This document shows, one piece after another, positions 264 to 8,317 of a stretch of DNA of 40,136 nt (positions are counted from its first letter, which is position 1; every line of letters begins with the position of its first letter). The notes under the pieces were generated by a model. The model did no database searches. It was not told the origin of the DNA and saw only the letters and a program-made list of their open reading frames with translations. Source of the stretch: Acidobacteriota bacterium. GTDB taxonomy: Bacteria; Acidobacteriota; Terriglobia; Acidiferrales; UBA7541. The position numbers and the translations under genes were made by a program. The stretch lies in assembly GCA_003223215.1 (NCBI GenBank), contig QHYH01000128.1, positions 1 through 40,136 of the forward strand. Reading direction: 5' to 3'.

Positions 264-2477
264 TTAGGGCAGCTTTGTCGCTTCGACCAGAAGGTGTCCC
301 GTGAACGAGGTGATGAGCCGCGGATTCGAGCTGTCGATCGTTCCCAGGTCTTTCGCGTCTACATAATCCGTCACGCGGTATTTCCCGGATTCGAGGCCGC
401 GTAATTCGATGGCTCCTTGATACGGCGCGCTTGGATTTTCCGTGAAGAAGGCATAGTACATGGTTCCGTCCTTCTCAATCGCATACGCCTCGGGATAATC
501 GTAGCCGTAGACATACAGGTCGCGAAATTCGCCGCGCGAAAGCATTTTCTCGTTGTAAAGAGAGATCCATTTCTTCCACTGCGCCTCCTTCGAGGCCGTC
601 AGCGCCACGTCTTTGTACTTCGGGCTCGGGTCTCCCCAGGTGAACTTCGTCCCTAGGACGCCGCCGGTGCCAAGTGTTGAAGCGAAATCGCGGCCGTGCT
701 CTTTCCAGTCGCCGTTGCCGGTGCGGGTCATTTCCGAGAGTTCGACGTGATCGCCGTAAACTGCGGCTTGCGGCCCGAGTAAAGCCTTGTACCACTTGAT
801 TCGGCGACGCACCTGCACTCCGCCGACTGGATCGGCCGTCACCGCCTGGTCCATATATTGCAGCCAGGTAAAATTGGGCGTCGTTCCGCAGGGACATATT
901 TGCGTCACGCTGTCCGGTTTCAACGCCCGCGTCGTCTGGAAGATCACCTTGTAAACCTCGGCCATCGCCTGAATCGACTCTTGCGGCGATTGGTGATGGT
1001 GTTTGGGGTTATAACAGGCGGGCACGGTATAGATATTGTCCAGCTTGTGGCCGTCGAAATCCCAATCGCGGATAAACTTTTGCGCCAAGCGCTTCGTGTA
1101 TTCCTGCACTTCCGGCATGGCGGGGCAAAGGGTTGCGAGTCCACGCGTGCTCGGTGCCGGCTTACCGTCTTTGTCCAGAATGAGCCAGTCCGGATGTTGC
1201 TTCACCACTTCCGCAACAACGTATTTGTGCGATTCATACCCACCGGTCCCGTTTTCCGCCACCAGCGGATACCACCAGATCTGCGCTCGCAGTCCCTCTC
1301 TGTGGAATTCATCCACCATTTTTCTGATCGAATCACCGGGAAACGTGTCCTGGCGTGGATTCCAATCGCCGTAGGTATCAAACCAGCGGTCGTCGAGAGT
1401 GGCCCACCTGATCCCTAGCTCCTTTAGTTTTGGGATGGTCCCGAGCATCTGCTTCGGCGTCACATTGGATTCGTAGCCCCAGCCACACCACGCTATTCGA
1501 TAGTCCTCATTGTTCGGTTTCGGAAGCGTCCAGCCTTCTTTTTGCAAGGCCAGCGAATACATGCGCAGCGGCTCGTAAAAATCGCCGGAGTACACCGCGA
1601 GAAATGTCCGGGGAGCCGCAAAACTCTCACCCGGTTTGAGCGTGGCCGCATCGTTCAGCTCGATAGCCGCTTCGACACGCTGGTCGCTGCCCACACGAAC
1701 GGGCATGGTGAGCACGAGGGGGAGAGTCTCAATATGCCCGATCGCGACTCCTACGTTTCGCGTCCAGAATGCGTTGACGGGAATCCCGCCGCCCTGTCCG
1801 TGATTGACCGGTGCCGCCATCACGTTTTCTTGCGCGAATTTCGCCGGGATCCCCAAAATTTCATCATTGCCCCAGTTCACGCTGGCGCCCTGGAAGGACC
1901 ACATCTCGTACGGCTTGGCTTTAGCGTCGGCCAGGGAGGCATCCAACTCGTGCCGCTCGGCAATGACTTGGTCGAGCTTGAGATCCGAAAGGGAAACGTT
2001 CTTGTACGCCGTTGAGAGGATCGCCAGATTTGGGAAGTCGTCATAGACCTCGATCGTGTCCCTTCTCTCAAGCTTCGTCGAAGCGCTGGTGCTTACGAAT
2101 TCCAGTCGTCTGCCCTGAGCCCCCAGCCGGCCGCTCGCGTCGCTGATCTTTGGCGCCGACTGCGCGACGAAGTCGTCCACCGGCTTTCCATTGACGATCG
2201 CTGTTTCCGATTGATCCTCACTTCGATCCGCCTCAATCGTCAGCTTGTTCGCATTGGCTAGCAGGAATGCCTTTGCCGAGTGCCCGCCAAGCACGTGAAA
2301 CTCTGCGGTCTTGGTCCGCACGACCCAGCGATTTTCTTGTCCTGAGGGCGGAACGATTTCGACAGATGACGGCCGTGTCCCTCTGGGCGCCTCGCCTTTT
2401 TCTTTCGCGCAGCCCGCAGCCCACAGCAGAAGAACCGGCAGTGCCCGTGCGAGCCGGAGCAACGTCGTTGTTTTCAC
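264..2477 (-). CDS. Secreted GH36-type alpha-galactosidase (melibiase-like), probable lipoprotein
   Basis: The 737-residue product is predicted to hydrolyse terminal alpha-galactosyl groups from plant oligo- or polysaccharides outside the cytoplasm. It starts with a GTG at 2475-2477. The basic-hydrophobic leader ends in AAGC, a loose lipobox with Cys23 as the likely lipidated residue. Residues about 30-310 look like the N-terminal beta-sandwich domain. A (beta/alpha)8 barrel follows, with LGIRWATLDDRWFD, GLRAQIWWYP and DFDGHKLDN. The Asp of KLDN (about residue 480) fits the GH36 nucleophile position. The acid/base is less clear: the usual Gly-rich loop is replaced by CPCGTTPNFTW, followed by Asp near 542 and 548. 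The gene is divergent from the FAD-enzyme/receptor operon. GH27 or another clan GH-D family remains possible. Confidence 0.75.
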   Translation of the reverse strand: MKTTTLLRLARALPVLLLWAAGCAKEKGEAPRGTRPSSVEIVPPSGQENRWVVRTKTAEFHVLGGHSAKAFLLANANKLTIEADRSEDQSETAIVNGKPVDDFVAQSAPKISDASGRLGAQGRRLEFVSTSASTKLERRDTIEVYDDFPNLAILSTAYKNVSLSDLKLDQVIAERHELDASLADAKAKPYEMWSFQGASVNWGNDEILGIPAKFAQENVMAAPVNHGQGGGIPVNAFWTRNVGVAIGHIETLPLVLTMPVRVGSDQRVEAAIELNDAATLKPGESFAAPRTFLAVYSGDFYEPLRMYSLALQKEGWTLPKPNNEDYRIAWCGWGYESNVTPKQMLGTIPKLKELGIRWATLDDRWFDTYGDWNPRQDTFPGDSIRKMVDEFHREGLRAQIWWYPLVAENGTGGYESHKYVVAEVVKQHPDWLILDKDGKPAPSTRGLATLCPAMPEVQEYTKRLAQKFIRDWDFDGHKLDNIYTVPACYNPKHHHQSPQESIQAMAEVYKVIFQTTRALKPDSVTQICPCGTTPNFTWLQYMDQAVTADPVGGVQVRRRIKWYKALLGPQAAVYGDHVELSEMTRTGNGDWKEHGRDFASTLGTGGVLGTKFTWGDPSPKYKDVALTASKEAQWKKWISLYNEKMLSRGEFRDLYVYGYDYPEAYAIEKDGTMYYAFFTENPSAPYQGAIELRGLESGKYRVTDYVDAKDLGTIDSSNPRLITSFTGHLLVEATKLP

Positions 2478-2505: not shown

Positions 2506-2534
2506 TTGACTTACGTCCCGCTTTGATTCATATT
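2506..2534 (+). promoter_or_regulatory. Predicted sigma70 promoter for the FAD-enzyme/receptor 1 operon
   Basis: TTGACT (2506-2511) and CATATT (2529-2534) are separated by exactly 17 bp. This matches the -35 box at 5 of 6 and the -10 box at 4 of 6. It lies in the 212-bp gap between the divergent alpha-galactosidase (start 2477) and FAD-enzyme (start 2690) genes and would give a leader of about 150 nt. No convincing LacI-type palindrome is seen next to it. Confidence 0.45.
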
Positions 2535-2689
2535 CCGCAGCACATCGAAAGCAATCGAAACCTTGCAACGCGCCTTAGCGTGCCATAAAGGAGCGATGCG
2601 AAGCAATATGAACCGAGCGGCTTCCCTGATCGCGGTTTCTCTCTTGCCCGTTGTGGAAGAAAGACGGACAAGGTGAAAGGAACCTCGCG

Positions 2690-4630
2690 GTGGGTCAATG
2701 CCCTGATCACGATAAGCTCCTCGGTCTCCTCGAGCCGATTTCGCGTCGTGATTTCCTGGATGGAATGCTGCTTGCCTCCGCGGATATGTTTCTGGCCGGG
2801 TTCTGCCCGTTTCCTCTCGGTGCCCAAGGAACCGGTGAAATCAGTCCTGGTTGGACCGGATATACCGGAGAGGGCGACTACCAAGCCGCTGCTGGCAATA
2901 CCGAACGAGTGATCCAAGACGCGCATGCGGTGCGCGATGGCCGGTATGACCAATCTTCGTCGGAATCGACGGAAACTGGCGAGGTCTACGACTGTGTCGT
3001 GGTCGGAGCCGGGTTCGCCGGTTTGTCGGCCGGATTATTCTTCTCCCGACAAGCCAGTCCGACGCGCAACTGCCTCATTCTCGACAACGCGCGAATCTTT
3101 GGCGGGGTCGCCAAACGAAATGAGTTCGTCGTTGATGGCCATCGCTTCTTTGCTCCGCAGGCGTCGGTTCATTTTCAACCGCCCTATCCGAACAGCTTTC
3201 TCGAAAGCGTCTATGACGCCATGGGCTTGGACTGGGACGCGTTCAAGTCCTATCAGAAATGGCAAGGTCCCAGGCCTGAAATTTCCCTGCCGCGAAGCGC
3301 CTACGGTCATGGGACGATCGACGGCAAGCCCGCGACTGGCTTCTTTTTCGGCGCGAAGTACGGGCACCAACCCGGAATCTGGATCACTGACCCGTGGGGC
3401 AAGAAACTCGAAGGAACTCCCTTCTCGGAGACCACCCGCCGCGAAATGTTGGCGCTGCACGGCGAACAGGCGGTTCGGGCGCCGCTGGTCTACGACTATC
3501 CGGGCGACGCCGTCTCACGGCAGCTTGACAGTATGACTCTCGAGGACTACCTCATACGCACCTACGGCGTCAGTCGCGAAACGATTCGCCTGCTGGTCGC
3601 GGGTGAATCGAGCGGGGGATTCGGCCTGGGCCCCGATGCGCTATCCGCATTCCTCCACTACGAATGGTCCAAGGTCATTCCGACGGTCGACGACAGCATG
3701 GCGACAGGGATTCAAATGTTCCCTGGCGGCAACTCCGGCATGATTCGATTGCTCGTCAAAACCCTCATCCCGGAATCGATCGAAGGACCGCGCACCATGG
3801 AGGCGGTCTGGAAAAACCCCGTTAACTTCTCGGCCTTGGACCGATCCGGTCAGCGGGTTCGCCTGCGGCTCGATTCCACTGCGGTTCGGGTCGAACACCT
3901 CGGCGAACCCGAGAAATCGGATTTCGTTTCCCTCACCTACACCAATGGCGGTCGCCTCTTTCGAGTCAAAGCGAAGACCGTGGTTATGGCCGGAGGCGGG
4001 TGGATGAGCAAGCACGTCGTGCGCGATTTGGATGAGACGCGGCGCAAAAGCTACGAACAATTCAACTACTCGCCCTATATGACGGCGAACGTCGCCGTTC
4101 GCAACTGGCGCTTCCTCTACAACCTGGGCATCTCCAGCGCCGAGTGGTTCGAGGGCTTCGGCCGTTATGTCAACGTGCGGAAAAGCGCGACGTTTGGTGT
4201 CGATTCGCCAACGATGGGCCCGGATCTGCCTACCGTGCTCACCTTCTTCGTCGATTTCGCCAAGCCGGGCCTTCCGGCTCGCACGCAGGGTCAGTTGGGT
4301 CGAGCGGAATTGCTTTCCACCTCGTTCGCCGATTACGAACGGCAGATACGCCAACAAATGACCGACATGTTTCGAGCCTCCGGCTTCGATGCCAAGCGCG
4401 ACATCGCCGGGATCGTGCTCAACCGTTTTGGTCACGCTTTCATTAATCCGCAACCCGGTTTCTTCTTCGGACTGGATGGCCAACCCGCTGCCCGCGATGC
4501 GCTTCGCAATGGTCCTTTCGGCAGAATCGCCTTCTCTCATTCCGATTTGGCCGGAGCGATGGATCATCGCAACGCGTTCTTGGAGTCCAAACGTGCAGTG
4601 AATCAACTTCTGGATCAGGTCCTAACTTAG
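2690..4630 (+). CDS. Tat-exported FAD-dependent oxidoreductase, spermidine-dehydrogenase (SpdH)-like
   Basis: The 646-residue flavoprotein resembles the SpdH-like NAD(P)/FAD-binding group, which oxidises amines or other small substrates and passes electrons to the respiratory chain. A twin-arginine motif SRRDFLDG (residues 18-25) indicates folded export. The family signature follows: a YTGEGDY region, AVRDGRYD, TGEVYDCVVVGAGFAGLSAG (dinucleotide fold, GxGxxG near residue 106), LILDN and a GG-AKRNEF segment. I chose GTG 2690 because AAAGGAA lies 7 nt upstream. A TTG at 2651 would add 13 residues without a Shine-Dalgarno site. The stop is 21 nt before receptor 1, so co-transcription is likely. 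The substrate is unknown, and the context suggests a sugar- or plant-derived compound rather than spermidine. The C-terminal ASHSD/MDHRNAF-type region looks intact. Confidence 0.75.
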   Translation: MGQCPDHDKLLGLLEPISRRDFLDGMLLASADMFLAGFCPFPLGAQGTGEISPGWTGYTGEGDYQAAAGNTERVIQDAHAVRDGRYDQSSSESTETGEVYDCVVVGAGFAGLSAGLFFSRQASPTRNCLILDNARIFGGVAKRNEFVVDGHRFFAPQASVHFQPPYPNSFLESVYDAMGLDWDAFKSYQKWQGPRPEISLPRSAYGHGTIDGKPATGFFFGAKYGHQPGIWITDPWGKKLEGTPFSETTRREMLALHGEQAVRAPLVYDYPGDAVSRQLDSMTLEDYLIRTYGVSRETIRLLVAGESSGGFGLGPDALSAFLHYEWSKVIPTVDDSMATGIQMFPGGNSGMIRLLVKTLIPESIEGPRTMEAVWKNPVNFSALDRSGQRVRLRLDSTAVRVEHLGEPEKSDFVSLTYTNGGRLFRVKAKTVVMAGGGWMSKHVVRDLDETRRKSYEQFNYSPYMTANVAVRNWRFLYNLGISSAEWFEGFGRYVNVRKSATFGVDSPTMGPDLPTVLTFFVDFAKPGLPARTQGQLGRAELLSTSFADYERQIRQQMTDMFRASGFDAKRDIAGIVLNRFGHAFINPQPGFFFGLDGQPAARDALRNGPFGRIAFSHSDLAGAMDHRNAFLESKRAVNQLLDQVLT

Positions 4631-4651
4631 GGAAAGGATGGCGAAGTCACA

Positions 4652-7600
4652 ATGCTAAGCCCAATTCTGGTTCGCAGACTAACCGAAATCTTTGGGTTCA
4701 TCGCGCTCGGGCTGGTGCTTGCTGTAACGGCCTTCGCACAGGTCGATACGGGAGCAATTTCGGGCACCGTCAAAGACACCAGCGGCGGGGTCATTCCCGG
4801 CGTCAAAGTGACCATTGCCAATGAAGATACGGGACTCTCCGTGTCGACCACTAGCGGCTCCGCTGGCGAATATGTTTTTTCGCCGGTCAAGATTGGACGT
4901 TACTCGGTATCCGCAGAAATGAAGGGCTTCCAAAAGGTCCAGCAGAAGAACGTTACGGTCGATGTGCAGCAGAGAGTAGTGGTCGATTTCACGCTGGCGC
5001 CGGGCCAGACGATGGAGACCGTAGTCGTGAACGCAGCGCCTGCGGTGCTCCAGACACAAGACGCCTCCGTCGGACAGGTCATCGGTGAACGCACGGTAGA
5101 CGCTCTTCCACTGAATGGACGCAACTACATCTTTCTTGCTCAGCTCTCTGCCGGCGTCACTCAGGGTCAGCAGGACACGCGTGGGCTCGGAGGCAGCGGA
5201 AGCTTTGCCGCGAATGGCCTGCGGCCCGCACAAAACAACTACTTGCTTGACGGCATTGACAATAACGTTGAGCTCGTCGACTTCCTCAACGGCACGCATT
5301 TTGTGGTCCGCCCTCCGGTCGACGCCATCCAGGAATTCAAGATTCAAACCAATAGCTTTAGCGCCGAGTTCGGACGGTCCGCCGGAGCCATTCTGAATGC
5401 CACCATTAAGTCCGGCACCAACCATTTCCACGGGACGCTCTGGGAATTCCTTCGCAATGACAAGTTCGACGCCGCAAATTTCTTTGAGAATGCCGGAGGA
5501 ATTCCCAAAGGAGAATTCCGGCAAAACCAATTCGGCGGATCGATCGGTGGTCCGGTAGTCATTCCGCATCTCTATCACGGCACGGATAAGACATTTTTCT
5601 TTTTCGATTATGAGGGTACGCGCACCCGCCAAGCCGTTCCCTATACTTCAACAGTTCCGACGGCTCTCGAACGATCGAGCGGCTATACCAATCTTTCCGA
5701 ACTGCTCACGCAGGGCGGCACGCAAACCGACGTACTCGGGCGAAGCACGCCGCTCGGCCAGGTTTTTGAGCCCTCCACCACACGCGCCGTTTTCTGTGGT
5801 ACCGCCGATCCAGTCACGGGACTCACGCCGACGAGCGGGCCGGATAGTGCTTGTCCCACCGGAACTCCGCCTGGAACGCAAGCGGGGTTTGTCCGCGAAC
5901 CCTTCTCAGGAAATATCATTCCGGCAGCCCGCCTTGATCCCAACGCCATCGCCTTGCTCAATCTGTTTCCCGCGCCGAACAACCCCAGCTTGTTCTCCAA
6001 TTTCGCGAGTAATCCCGTCTTGCGAGTCAACGCCAACCAGTTTGATGCGCGCGGCGATCAGGCCATCGGTGCCAAGGACCAGATGTTTGTACGTGTCAGT
6101 TACTCCGATTCGCCCGAATTCATCCCGGGACCGTTCACCGGAATCGCCGACGGCGGCTCTTTTTCCTCGGGCGACCAAACCGCGAAATCGTGGAACATCG
6201 CCCTGAGCGAAACACACACGTTCTCTCCGCGTCTCGTAAATGAAGCCCGCATCGGCGTCAATCGCATCGAAACCACACGCGTTCAGCCATTCAGCAACGA
6301 CCTGAGCAACATTCCCGGTCAATTTGGCATTCAGGGTGTTCCGCAGGTGCCCTCGAATGGCGGCCTCGGGACCATTTTCATCACCGGGCTGAACACTCTG
6401 GGCAGCAACCAATTCCTGCCATCCATCGAGACGAGCCTGACGTCGCAATACATGGACAACCTCACGAAGGTGTGGGGAAAACAAACCATGAAGTTTGGCT
6501 TCGAGCACCAGCACTTGCGCTTCACCATCCTGCAGCCGCCCTCCGGCCGCGGAGCGTGGTCCTTTAGCGGCGCCTACACGGAAGTTCCCTCGCAAGGCGG
6601 AGGCAACACGGGATTGGCACAGATGCTGTTGATCCCCATCAAGGGTACGGTTCCCGGCGCGTCTGACTTTGTCGGTGGCGCGGATAACATTCAAGCTTCC
6701 AATTACGCCAATACGGACATGGGGCGCAACTATAACGCCGCCTACGTGCAGGACGACTGGAAAGTGACCCCCAAGCTGACGCTGAATTTAGGATTGCGCT
6801 GGGAATATTTCGGTCAAATCGTGGAGCGCTACGGCGCACAAACCAATTTTCAACCTGCCGCGACCCCGGGGGGCACTTCGGTATTTCTGCTCACGAAGCG
6901 GCGATGCAGCGTGCCTTTCTCCGCTGATTTCATGGCCGCCGCTGCCGCAGACAATATCAGCATCGTGTGCTCGAACGTGGGCGGGCTCGGTCATTCGCAG
7001 AAGACCAACTTCGGCCCGCGTATCGGTTTGGCCTATCGCGCGACGCCCAAGTTCGCTGTGCGGGCCGGCGCCGGTATGTTCTATGGCGGCTTTGAGAACT
7101 CCGTTATCGAAACCTATGTTGATTTTCCGTTCCAGTTCAATTTGTCCTATCCCTCGCTTGCGCCGAATCTGCCAATCACGTTCGCGAATGGAGCGATCGG
7201 GACACTCGAAACCGGGCTCTCGGCGCTTGTTCCCATTACTTCTGCCGCGGCGGAGCCCGCTGGCTCCAGCTTGATTGGCGAAGACTACCATATGAAAACG
7301 CCTTACACACTGAGCTACAACCTCACCCTGCAGTACGAGCTTTCCGCGGGTCAGACCGTACAGGCGGCCTACGTAGGCAACGGTGTGAGGCACTTAGGTG
7401 TGTACATCAATCCGAATTCACCGAACCAGATTCTTCCTCCGGGACTAAACTCCTTCCAGTATGCTCCGTATCCCGATTTTCCGACGGGCTTTACCTATTC
7501 GACTTTTGCCGGCAACAGCTACTACAATTCTCTCCAACTCAACTACGAGCGGCGGTTCAGCGCGGGCTTGCAGGCGCTCGCTAATTTCACCTGGTCCAAG

Positions 7601-8317
7601 TGCCGCACCGATGCCGCCGACGTCCTCAACGAAACGGCTATCTTTTATCGTGCCCCGCGGCTCCCGGGGTTCGGTATCCAGGGAGACTACGGCCTGTGCG
7701 ATTTCGACATCACCAAGGTCTTCCATTTCAGCGGCGCCTACGAGTTGCCCATCGGCAAAGGAAAGCGCTTCCTCGCAAATGGTGGAGCGGTCGTCAACGG
7801 TGTGCTTGGCGGCTGGAAAACCAACTGGATTCTCACGCTCCAGGATGGCCAGCCCCTTACCGTTCCGTGTGTTATTTCCACGACTTCCGGGTTTGGCTGT
7901 TATGCTCTGCTCGTTCCCGGACAGAACAAATACGCTGGTCCGCACAACGTGGACCAGTGGCTGAACCCCGCGGCCTTTACGAGCCCGCCCGTCGCGACCA
8001 CCATAGGCCAGTCGGATCGCTCGCCCTTGGGCGGCGCCCCGACGCAGTTCTATGGCCCCGGTTTTCACCGACTGGACTTCTCCCTGTTCAAAGATTTCCG
8101 CACCTCCGAAAGCACGCACTTGGAGTTCCGATCCGAGTTTTTCAACCTCACCAACCATCCCAACTTCTCGCCTCCCGGATTTAGCGGCAATGGTGTCCTG
8201 GCCGCGCCCGGTTCGCTCAATTACGCTTCGCCGACTACTTTCGGAAAGATCGCGTCAACGCGCGACGGCCAGAACGACCAGCGCGAAATTCAGTTTGCCC
8301 TGAAATTCTATTTTTGA
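4652..8317 (+). CDS. TonB-dependent receptor 1, Oar-like with carboxypeptidase-regulatory-like N-terminus
   Basis: The 1221-residue outer-membrane protein probably imports a glycan fragment or metal complex. The leader ends in AFAQ, a good signal-peptidase I site near residue 30. Residues about 32-115 form a carboxypeptidase-regulatory-like beta-sandwich (GAISGTVKDTSGGVIPGVKVTI, then GEYVFSPVKIGRYSVSAEMKGF). A plug follows, with LPLNGRNYIFLAQLSAGV, NNYLLDGIDNN and AIQEFKIQTNSFSAEFGRSAGA. The long beta-barrel ends in FALKFYF, the aromatic C-terminus used for BAM insertion. It lies 21 nt behind the FAD-enzyme gene. An AAAGGA is 13 nt from the ATG, rather distant, so coupling from the upstream gene may matter. 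No SusD-like gene follows. Confidence 0.92.
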   Translation: MLSPILVRRLTEIFGFIALGLVLAVTAFAQVDTGAISGTVKDTSGGVIPGVKVTIANEDTGLSVSTTSGSAGEYVFSPVKIGRYSVSAEMKGFQKVQQKNVTVDVQQRVVVDFTLAPGQTMETVVVNAAPAVLQTQDASVGQVIGERTVDALPLNGRNYIFLAQLSAGVTQGQQDTRGLGGSGSFAANGLRPAQNNYLLDGIDNNVELVDFLNGTHFVVRPPVDAIQEFKIQTNSFSAEFGRSAGAILNATIKSGTNHFHGTLWEFLRNDKFDAANFFENAGGIPKGEFRQNQFGGSIGGPVVIPHLYHGTDKTFFFFDYEGTRTRQAVPYTSTVPTALERSSGYTNLSELLTQGGTQTDVLGRSTPLGQVFEPSTTRAVFCGTADPVTGLTPTSGPDSACPTGTPPGTQAGFVREPFSGNIIPAARLDPNAIALLNLFPAPNNPSLFSNFASNPVLRVNANQFDARGDQAIGAKDQMFVRVSYSDSPEFIPGPFTGIADGGSFSSGDQTAKSWNIALSETHTFSPRLVNEARIGVNRIETTRVQPFSNDLSNIPGQFGIQGVPQVPSNGGLGTIFITGLNTLGSNQFLPSIETSLTSQYMDNLTKVWGKQTMKFGFEHQHLRFTILQPPSGRGAWSFSGAYTEVPSQGGGNTGLAQMLLIPIKGTVPGASDFVGGADNIQASNYANTDMGRNYNAAYVQDDWKVTPKLTLNLGLRWEYFGQIVERYGAQTNFQPAATPGGTSVFLLTKRRCSVPFSADFMAAAAADNISIVCSNVGGLGHSQKTNFGPRIGLAYRATPKFAVRAGAGMFYGGFENSVIETYVDFPFQFNLSYPSLAPNLPITFANGAIGTLETGLSALVPITSAAAEPAGSSLIGEDYHMKTPYTLSYNLTLQYELSAGQTVQAAYVGNGVRHLGVYINPNSPNQILPPGLNSFQYAPYPDFPTGFTYSTFAGNSYYNSLQLNYERRFSAGLQALANFTWSKCRTDAADVLNETAIFYRAPRLPGFGIQGDYGLCDFDITKVFHFSGAYELPIGKGKRFLANGGAVVNGVLGGWKTNWILTLQDGQPLTVPCVISTTSGFGCYALLVPGQNKYAGPHNVDQWLNPAAFTSPPVATTIGQSDRSPLGGAPTQFYGPGFHRLDFSLFKDFRTSESTHLEFRSEFFNLTNHPNFSPPGFSGNGVLAAPGSLNYASPTTFGKIASTRDGQNDQREIQFALKFYF

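Follow-up and report, generated by a model that had tools for sequence, protein, structure and literature searches.

A spermidine-dehydrogenase-like gene paired with an Oar-type receptor in an acidobacterial sugar locus: a candidate flavo-heme amine dehydrogenase of amino-sugar uptake

What would a relative of spermidine dehydrogenase oxidise beside a TonB-dependent receptor and a sugar hydrolase? This question is raised by a stretch of 40,136 nucleotides of Acidobacteriota bacterium (assembly GCA_003223215.1, contig QHYH01000128.1, positions 1 to 40,136), here called the window, in which a gene for a protein resembling the spermidine dehydrogenase of Pseudomonas aeruginosa (PaSpdH) is followed on the same strand by a gene for an Oar-type receptor, Oar1. 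The clade of the dehydrogenase, termed B1, is by its sequence a distinct acidobacterial clade and a new subfamily of the SpdH flavo-heme family, and the enzyme-receptor pair is, judging from its return in other genomes, real and recurring. The substrate is probably not a polyamine and plausibly an amino sugar. Taken together, our tentatively favoured interpretation places the protein, as an exported flavo-heme amine dehydrogenase of a new subfamily, in an amino-sugar uptake module; the substrate we infer from the setting. Genomes (G), contigs (C) and loci (L) are cited by number where they have to be told apart. The principal features are the following.

264..2477, minus strand: GH36 hydrolase related to the galactosaminidase FpGalNase, with a GTG start and a lipoprotein-like N-terminus, divergent to the dehydrogenase gene
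2506..2534, plus strand: possible weak sigma-70-like promoter (9/12 match)
2690..4630, plus strand: SpdH-like flavin adenine dinucleotide (FAD)/heme-b dehydrogenase of clade B1, 646 aa from GTG, with the motif SRRDFLDG of the twin-arginine translocation (Tat) type and putative heme ligands H79 and H582
4652..8317, plus strand: Oar-type TonB-dependent receptor Oar1, with PF25183 at 732 bits and PF13620 at 75.5 bits, 21 nt 3' of the dehydrogenase gene

The dehydrogenase: fold, heme ligands and active site

Queried as the 659-aa frame that opens at 2651, the dehydrogenase matches PaSpdH over residues 30-652 (E ~1e-46), and a sequence search of solved structures at E 0.01 returned no entries but those of PaSpdH (PDB 7d9f-7d9j), at 29% identity. 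A structure model built from 22 sequences (mean predicted local distance difference test score 82) superposes on SpdH with Z 32-33 over 531-540 residues and a root-mean-square deviation of 3.6-3.8; the homology is full-length, and the fold agrees with it. Monoamine oxidases and their relatives follow at Z <= 24.7; the 50 fold matches listed are flavin amine oxidases and relatives, including protoporphyrinogen oxidases. Near the N-terminus, SRRDFLDG is followed by MLLASADMFLAGF, that is, a twin-arginine motif stands before a hydrophobic stretch, and the motif is mostly conserved. The Pfam TAT_signal family gave no match to the protein at E 0.001. On these features the protein is probably exported, and the initial annotation, which had described a Tat-exported SpdH-like FAD protein 21 nt before a receptor, is borne out in the PaSpdH match, the motif and the spacing.

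PaSpdH, as described in PMC12564564, carries FAD and a surface heme b with ligands His54 and His562, the heme being the primary acceptor for electrons from FAD. These histidines align with H79 and H582 of the window protein, the only invariant histidines in the 22-sequence alignment. In a larger alignment of 90 proteins, the His54 position is kept in 42/42 proteins of clade B and the His562 position in 41/42, the sole miss being a gap. Because both ligand histidines are kept, electrons probably leave FAD via heme b, cofactor loading being presumed here. The initial annotation had left the electron acceptor unnamed; since the heme-mediated route is likely, the acceptor side is probably no mystery, save for the step after heme b.

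The 90-protein alignment was assembled without SpdH-like pieces up to 585 aa long and without the duplicate loci L107, L108, L112 and L143; the split gene of G030 and the broken gene of G021 do not enter its counts. Groups were defined by identity thresholds. Next to clade B stands group A, the classical SpdH-type proteins of Acidobacteria, in which PaSpdH is counted as well (SpdH-like proteins of Acidobacteria have already been reported in PMC7576179). Group A belongs to the same family as the window protein, has the heme ligands in 43/44 members and in some cases adjoins Oar receptors; unlike the window protein, it is 43-52% identical to PaSpdH, and its identity to the window protein is 26-31%. 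The window genome holds four SpdH-like genes: the B1 copy of the window, a copy of the sister clade B2 on contig C116 and two classical copies on contig C110.

The active site separates the two groups. The deposited mutants of SpdH, to judge from the PDB titles, are D282A and Y443A (7d9i, 7d9j), which suggests that both residues take part in substrate binding. In the window protein they are replaced by Gly309 and Thr465 (numbered from the GTG). Tyr443 occurs in none of the 42 clade B proteins and in all 44 of group A; Asp282 is likewise missing from all 42, and is not diagnostic by itself because only 20/44 of group A keep it. Since Tyr443 is absent throughout clade B and universal in group A, and since the genome has its two classical copies besides, a plain spermidine dehydrogenase is an unlikely identity for the B1 protein. 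Thus, what the window protein shares with PaSpdH is the full length, the amine-oxidase fold, the Tat-like N-terminus and both heme b histidines; what sets it apart, apart from low identity and the two replacements, is a series of further clade-specific substitutions and a TonB receptor as partner.

Several observations on the wider family should be recorded. A third, remoter SpdH-like group (L085, L089, L091, L092; 23% identity to PaSpdH) keeps both heme histidines. One classical SpdH-type protein (L067:2363-4321), encoded near a long Oar-like frame, has both of them replaced, by Glu and Tyr. Directly 3' of a classical SpdH-type gene, three genomes encode a cytochrome c-like protein of ~650 aa (L053:10652-12604, L072:8711-10672, L081:8293-10257), assigned to multiheme families by Pfam in L081 and with homologs in L053 and L072; it is a likely electron acceptor.

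Pairing of the dehydrogenase with Oar1

The open frame of the dehydrogenase spans 2651-4630. GTG 2690 is the likelier start, because AAAGGA lies upstream of it and an aligned GTG is found in G018 and G017. The gap to Oar1 is 21 nt in G018 and G030 as well; in G017, with the first ATG as start, it comes to 7 nt. No terminator-like site was found in the 21-nt gap of the window. The layout is therefore operon-like as read from the DNA, and the two genes are presumably co-transcribed. The single promoter proposed by the initial annotation was not confirmed: the 9/12 match at 2506-2534 is one of 4 sigma-70-like sites in a region where 2.0 +/- 1.1 are expected, and among 6 aligned upstream sequences it is present only in the window and G018. 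Ratios of nonsynonymous to synonymous substitution (dN/dS) are 0.06-0.22 for the dehydrogenase in four comparisons (in two, the synonymous sites approach saturation) and 0.13 for Oar1 against G018 (not computable against G735); both genes look to be under purifying selection.

Oar1 combines OMP_b-brl_4 (PF25183) with CarboxypepD_reg (PF13620), as Oar-like receptors do. The plug domain PF07715 was not reported in Oar1 at E 0.001 and scores below cut-off in the orthologs of L109 and L148; no solved relative of Oar1 was found by sequence at E 0.001.

Because the genome has ~65 Oar genes (among the 65 of 141 candidates that were scored), a pair confined to a single genome would carry little weight. 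It should be noted that a receptor of the Oar1 clade, 65-92% identical, is the immediate same-strand neighbour in 6/15 B1 loci, of which one belongs to another family. The dehydrogenase gene precedes the receptor gene in five: the window, G018, G030, G017, where the contig end cuts the receptor, and G735, the member of the different family, where the two frames overlap. In the sixth, palsa_350, the receptor comes first, ~560 nt from the dehydrogenase gene. An obligatory pairing was rejected, as gp13, GL140, Bryobacterales, G469, G481, G532, G495, G563 and G479 have no adjacent Oar1. The last of these aligns, at 64% identity, along just a part of its length and, though counted among the 15 loci, did not pass as B1 in the 90-protein alignment or the trees; the 15 do not include the B1-like fragments on G481:C47 and G011:C479.

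Oar genes make up 14/652 open reading frames (ORFs) in the fetched loci. Among the slots next to B1 genes, with the window and G030 left aside, they fill 5/23 (p 1e-4), or four real cases if G495 is dropped, whose 258-aa neighbour has a CarboxypepD_reg domain only (p was not recomputed for four). The corresponding count for group A is 8/84 (p 5e-4), two receptors each being counted twice, once per flanking SpdH gene (6 distinct receptors), and that for B2 is 0/55. These p values are rough, as the loci are related, the genomes non-independent and the background taken from the same fetched loci. The check proposed by the initial annotation, whether the pairing repeats beyond this genome, thus shows a frequent, non-universal arrangement. 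Its two refuting conditions, a pairing unique to this genome and a plain polyamine dehydrogenase, are contradicted as far as tested by the recurring pairs and by the absence of Asp282 and Tyr443.

Two trees bear on the history of the pair, one including five Oar-linked SpdH proteins (without G030) and the other five linked receptors (without the G017 piece, which over its 218 aa matches the Oar1 clade at 83%). The linked dehydrogenases form no clade of their own; the linked receptors fall into one clade, which also has members without an adjacent SpdH gene. For this reason, the pair would either be ancestral and repeatedly lost or have formed more than once. No PDB match was obtained for the two genes 5' of the SpdH gene in G735, nor for one gene 5' of it in G017. 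In the open-licence PMC literature we found no published account of such a dehydrogenase-receptor pair, and no paper there joining TonB-dependent receptors with spermidine dehydrogenase, describing flavin deamination of amino sugars, or joining Oar with Acidobacteria.

Classical SpdH-type genes keep company with receptors of their own. Two to four of them are clustered near one Oar receptor in L048 (G017:C40), L051 (G029:C661) and L047 (contig C110 of the window genome). L048 and L051 also contain a class-III aminotransferase, and L048 an arginase-family gene besides; the arrangement has the look of a locus for polyamine utilisation that is served by a receptor of its own. In four further genomes (L074, L076, L078, L093), a different Oar-type receptor of ~1000 aa, split into two frames in L074, lies immediately 5' of a classical SpdH-type gene. 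It is preceded by a gene of ~400-440 aa, with a DUF5666 domain in both of those tested (L074 and L093).

The GH36 neighbour and its counterparts in related genomes

The hydrolase encoded at 264-2477 matches Melibiase at 56.7 bits, and the initial annotation had called it an alpha-galactosidase. Its closest solved relative is a galactosaminidase instead. The top solved chains are 8x1b, 9awt and 9ayu (E 3e-76 to 6e-73); after these, the best GH36 match is at E 7e-11. The titles of 9awt and 9ayu read galactosaminidase, that of 8x1b alpha-galactosidase; because 8x1b is near-identical to the other two in the aligned part, we take it as the same enzyme, FpGalNase of Flavonifractor plautii. For FpGalNase, PMC11762096 names the catalytic residues W317, D346, D347, W387, K461 and D463 and the specificity residues Y464, C513 and D532. 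The window protein, at 34% identity to FpGalNase (PDB 9awt), keeps 8 of these 9: all six catalytic residues and, in the specificity patch, C513 and D532, with Asn in place of Tyr464. It is thus likely a galactosamine-releasing enzyme, a likeness which concerns the neighbour and not the dehydrogenase. Its N-terminus is lipobox-like when read by eye. It is the single match in the genome at E 1e-50, and relatives occur in 18/35 other genomes of the genus examined.

Counterparts of the hydrolase and of the receptor were compared for their surroundings. Across 14 GH36 loci from elsewhere in the genus, PfkB was found 10 times, an SIS protein (AgaS/GlmD-like) 9 times and AgaR 6 times, at least one of the three being present in 11; the single locus examined in more detail also encodes a second PfkB and an aldolase of the DeoC/LacD family. 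The Oar1 ortholog of G035 adjoins a GH36 protein (55% identical to that of the window), an AgaR above the curated cut-off and a PfkB, and its locus also encodes an AgaZ-like protein below cut-off and a GH2 resembling exo-beta-glucosaminidase. G034, judged by frame sizes, resembles G035 and has a GH36; its AgaR frame was not seen as such. Oar1 lies beside DeoR, SIS, PfkB and GH2 in G060, and one Oar1 of G053 beside a protein assigned, ambiguously, to the glucosamine-6-phosphate isomerase/6-phosphogluconolactonase family. Two remoter receptors (55% and 52%) adjoin galactosidases of the GH59 type. The kinship of the GH36 protein, together with these neighbours of GH36 loci and Oar1 orthologs, therefore points to sugars of the galactose or galactosamine type. 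In clade B2, the neighbour of the G003 gene (L041) is a YdjC protein resembling carbohydrate deacetylases, which scores under the NCBIfam cut-off and, read by eye, has a signal peptide.

One idea that arose from these comparisons was that the dehydrogenase replaces a cytoplasmic SIS sugar-phosphate deaminase. In the first genome set, G000, G017 and G018, with B1 and GH36, lacked SIS, and 8 other GH36 genomes had it. The idea was rejected on a wider set of genomes.

Substrate of the pair and competing interpretations

In the scheme that we tentatively prefer, Oar1 would import an amino-sugar-containing compound across the outer membrane, and the GH36 lipoprotein would trim terminal residues of the alpha-galactosamine type. 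The Tat-exported dehydrogenase would then act in the periplasm on a free-amine sugar or a related amine, oxidising its C-N bond. FAD would hand the electrons to the surface heme b, and a cytochrome c or a quinone, named here as candidates for the final acceptor, would receive them next. In a narrower version, which we consider doubtful, B1 is a new flavo-heme b dehydrogenase of hexosamines (galactosamine-type) that works in the periplasm, takes the amine off by oxidation there and not in the cytoplasm, feeds the electrons directly into respiration and shares an operon with its own receptor. If the scheme is true, the small SpdH family of surface-heme flavoenzymes, whose interest for direct-electron-transfer sensors is pointed out in PMC12564564, would extend beyond polyamines; the pair would offer a substrate testable from both sides, receptor and enzyme; and it would hint at how soil Acidobacteria use amino sugars from the walls and polysaccharides of other cells.

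Several findings weigh against this scheme. Markers of the hexosamine type occur in 6/42 clade B loci against 0/36 of group A (Fisher p 0.02), were picked post hoc, and count the near-identical window and G018 separately. GH36 adjoins the SpdH gene only in these two close genomes, and an obligatory link between them was rejected (the SpdH locus of G030 begins at a contig end, and the GH36 gene of G017 lies ~41 kb away on the same contig). No GH36 relative was found at E 1e-40 in 5/14 genomes that carry B1, and 9/15 B1 loci are without an adjacent Oar1. G030 (by a partial SIS match), G469, G481, G532 and G535 have both a B1 dehydrogenase and SIS, and G024, G025 and G029 have GH36 with neither SIS nor a B1 gene. 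Finally, the rest of the window is of the arabinose type (two GH127 and a GH51-type enzyme), and the GH36 protein of G035 very weakly matches the NCBIfam beta-L-arabinopyranosidase (18.5 bits, cut-off 1100), which would fit such a setting.

Of the competing interpretations, two are in our opinion unlikely and the strongest of the set. The first is a flavo-heme dehydrogenase that oxidises a hydroxyl of a sugar or cyclitol, or another non-amine group, and delivers a keto product to neighbouring hydrolases. The sugar-locus setting, which the initial annotation had recognised and which stands, would suit it, as would the loss of the SpdH tyrosine. So would a creatininase-family hydrolase encoded ahead of the B2 genes of G016, G031, G025 (truncated where the contig ends) and G033 (fragments), since that family includes a keto-inositol hydrolase, although the NCBIfam match is weak (E 6e-9, far below cut-off). 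The leading fold matches, mostly enzymes that oxidise C-N bonds, speak against it, and no obvious keto-sugar gene set was found among the 18 window proteins scanned. The B2 loci with the creatininase-family hydrolase are L039, L040, L042 and L045, the B2 gene of L045 being a fragment; in two, the hydrolase has a signal peptide by eye.

In the second, which we credit no less than the first, the exported dehydrogenase acts on a different small amine, such as one from plants or cell walls, and is unrelated in function to the sugar genes beside it. Such an enzyme would have just the amine-dehydrogenase fold and heme ligands seen here, and the tested neighbours at the nine B1 loci without an adjacent Oar1 are mixed. 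Against it, receptors of a single clade remain the neighbour over 65-92% identity in three branches.

Chance co-location of the dehydrogenase and Oar1, without any shared function, is improbable. It draws on the abundance of Oar genes, both in the genome and in the background ORFs; the neighbour-slot counts of B1 and group A, rough as their p values are, argue otherwise, and so does the fact that the four real B1 cases, the window and G030 share one receptor clade (G017 by the match of its piece). Least probable is a plain spermidine dehydrogenase fed by imported polyamine, for despite the overall homology to PaSpdH, the retained heme ligands and the classical SpdH-type genes of the genus that also adjoin TonB receptors, in one cluster with arginase and aminotransferase, the protein has Gly and Thr for Asp282 and Tyr443, no polyamine gene was found among the 18 scanned window proteins, and the genome keeps its classical copies elsewhere, on C110. 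The initial annotation's doubt that the enzyme is a plain polyamine dehydrogenase is upheld by these residues.

Neither a tRNA nor an Rfam match at gathering score was found in the window. Positions 9672-38714 encode the two GH127 proteins, the GH51-type enzyme, a LacI protein, two more Oar receptors, and UnbV/ASPIC and TPR proteins. G018 is without the GH127 stretch at this place and has three frames only between Oar1 and Oar3/UnbV2.

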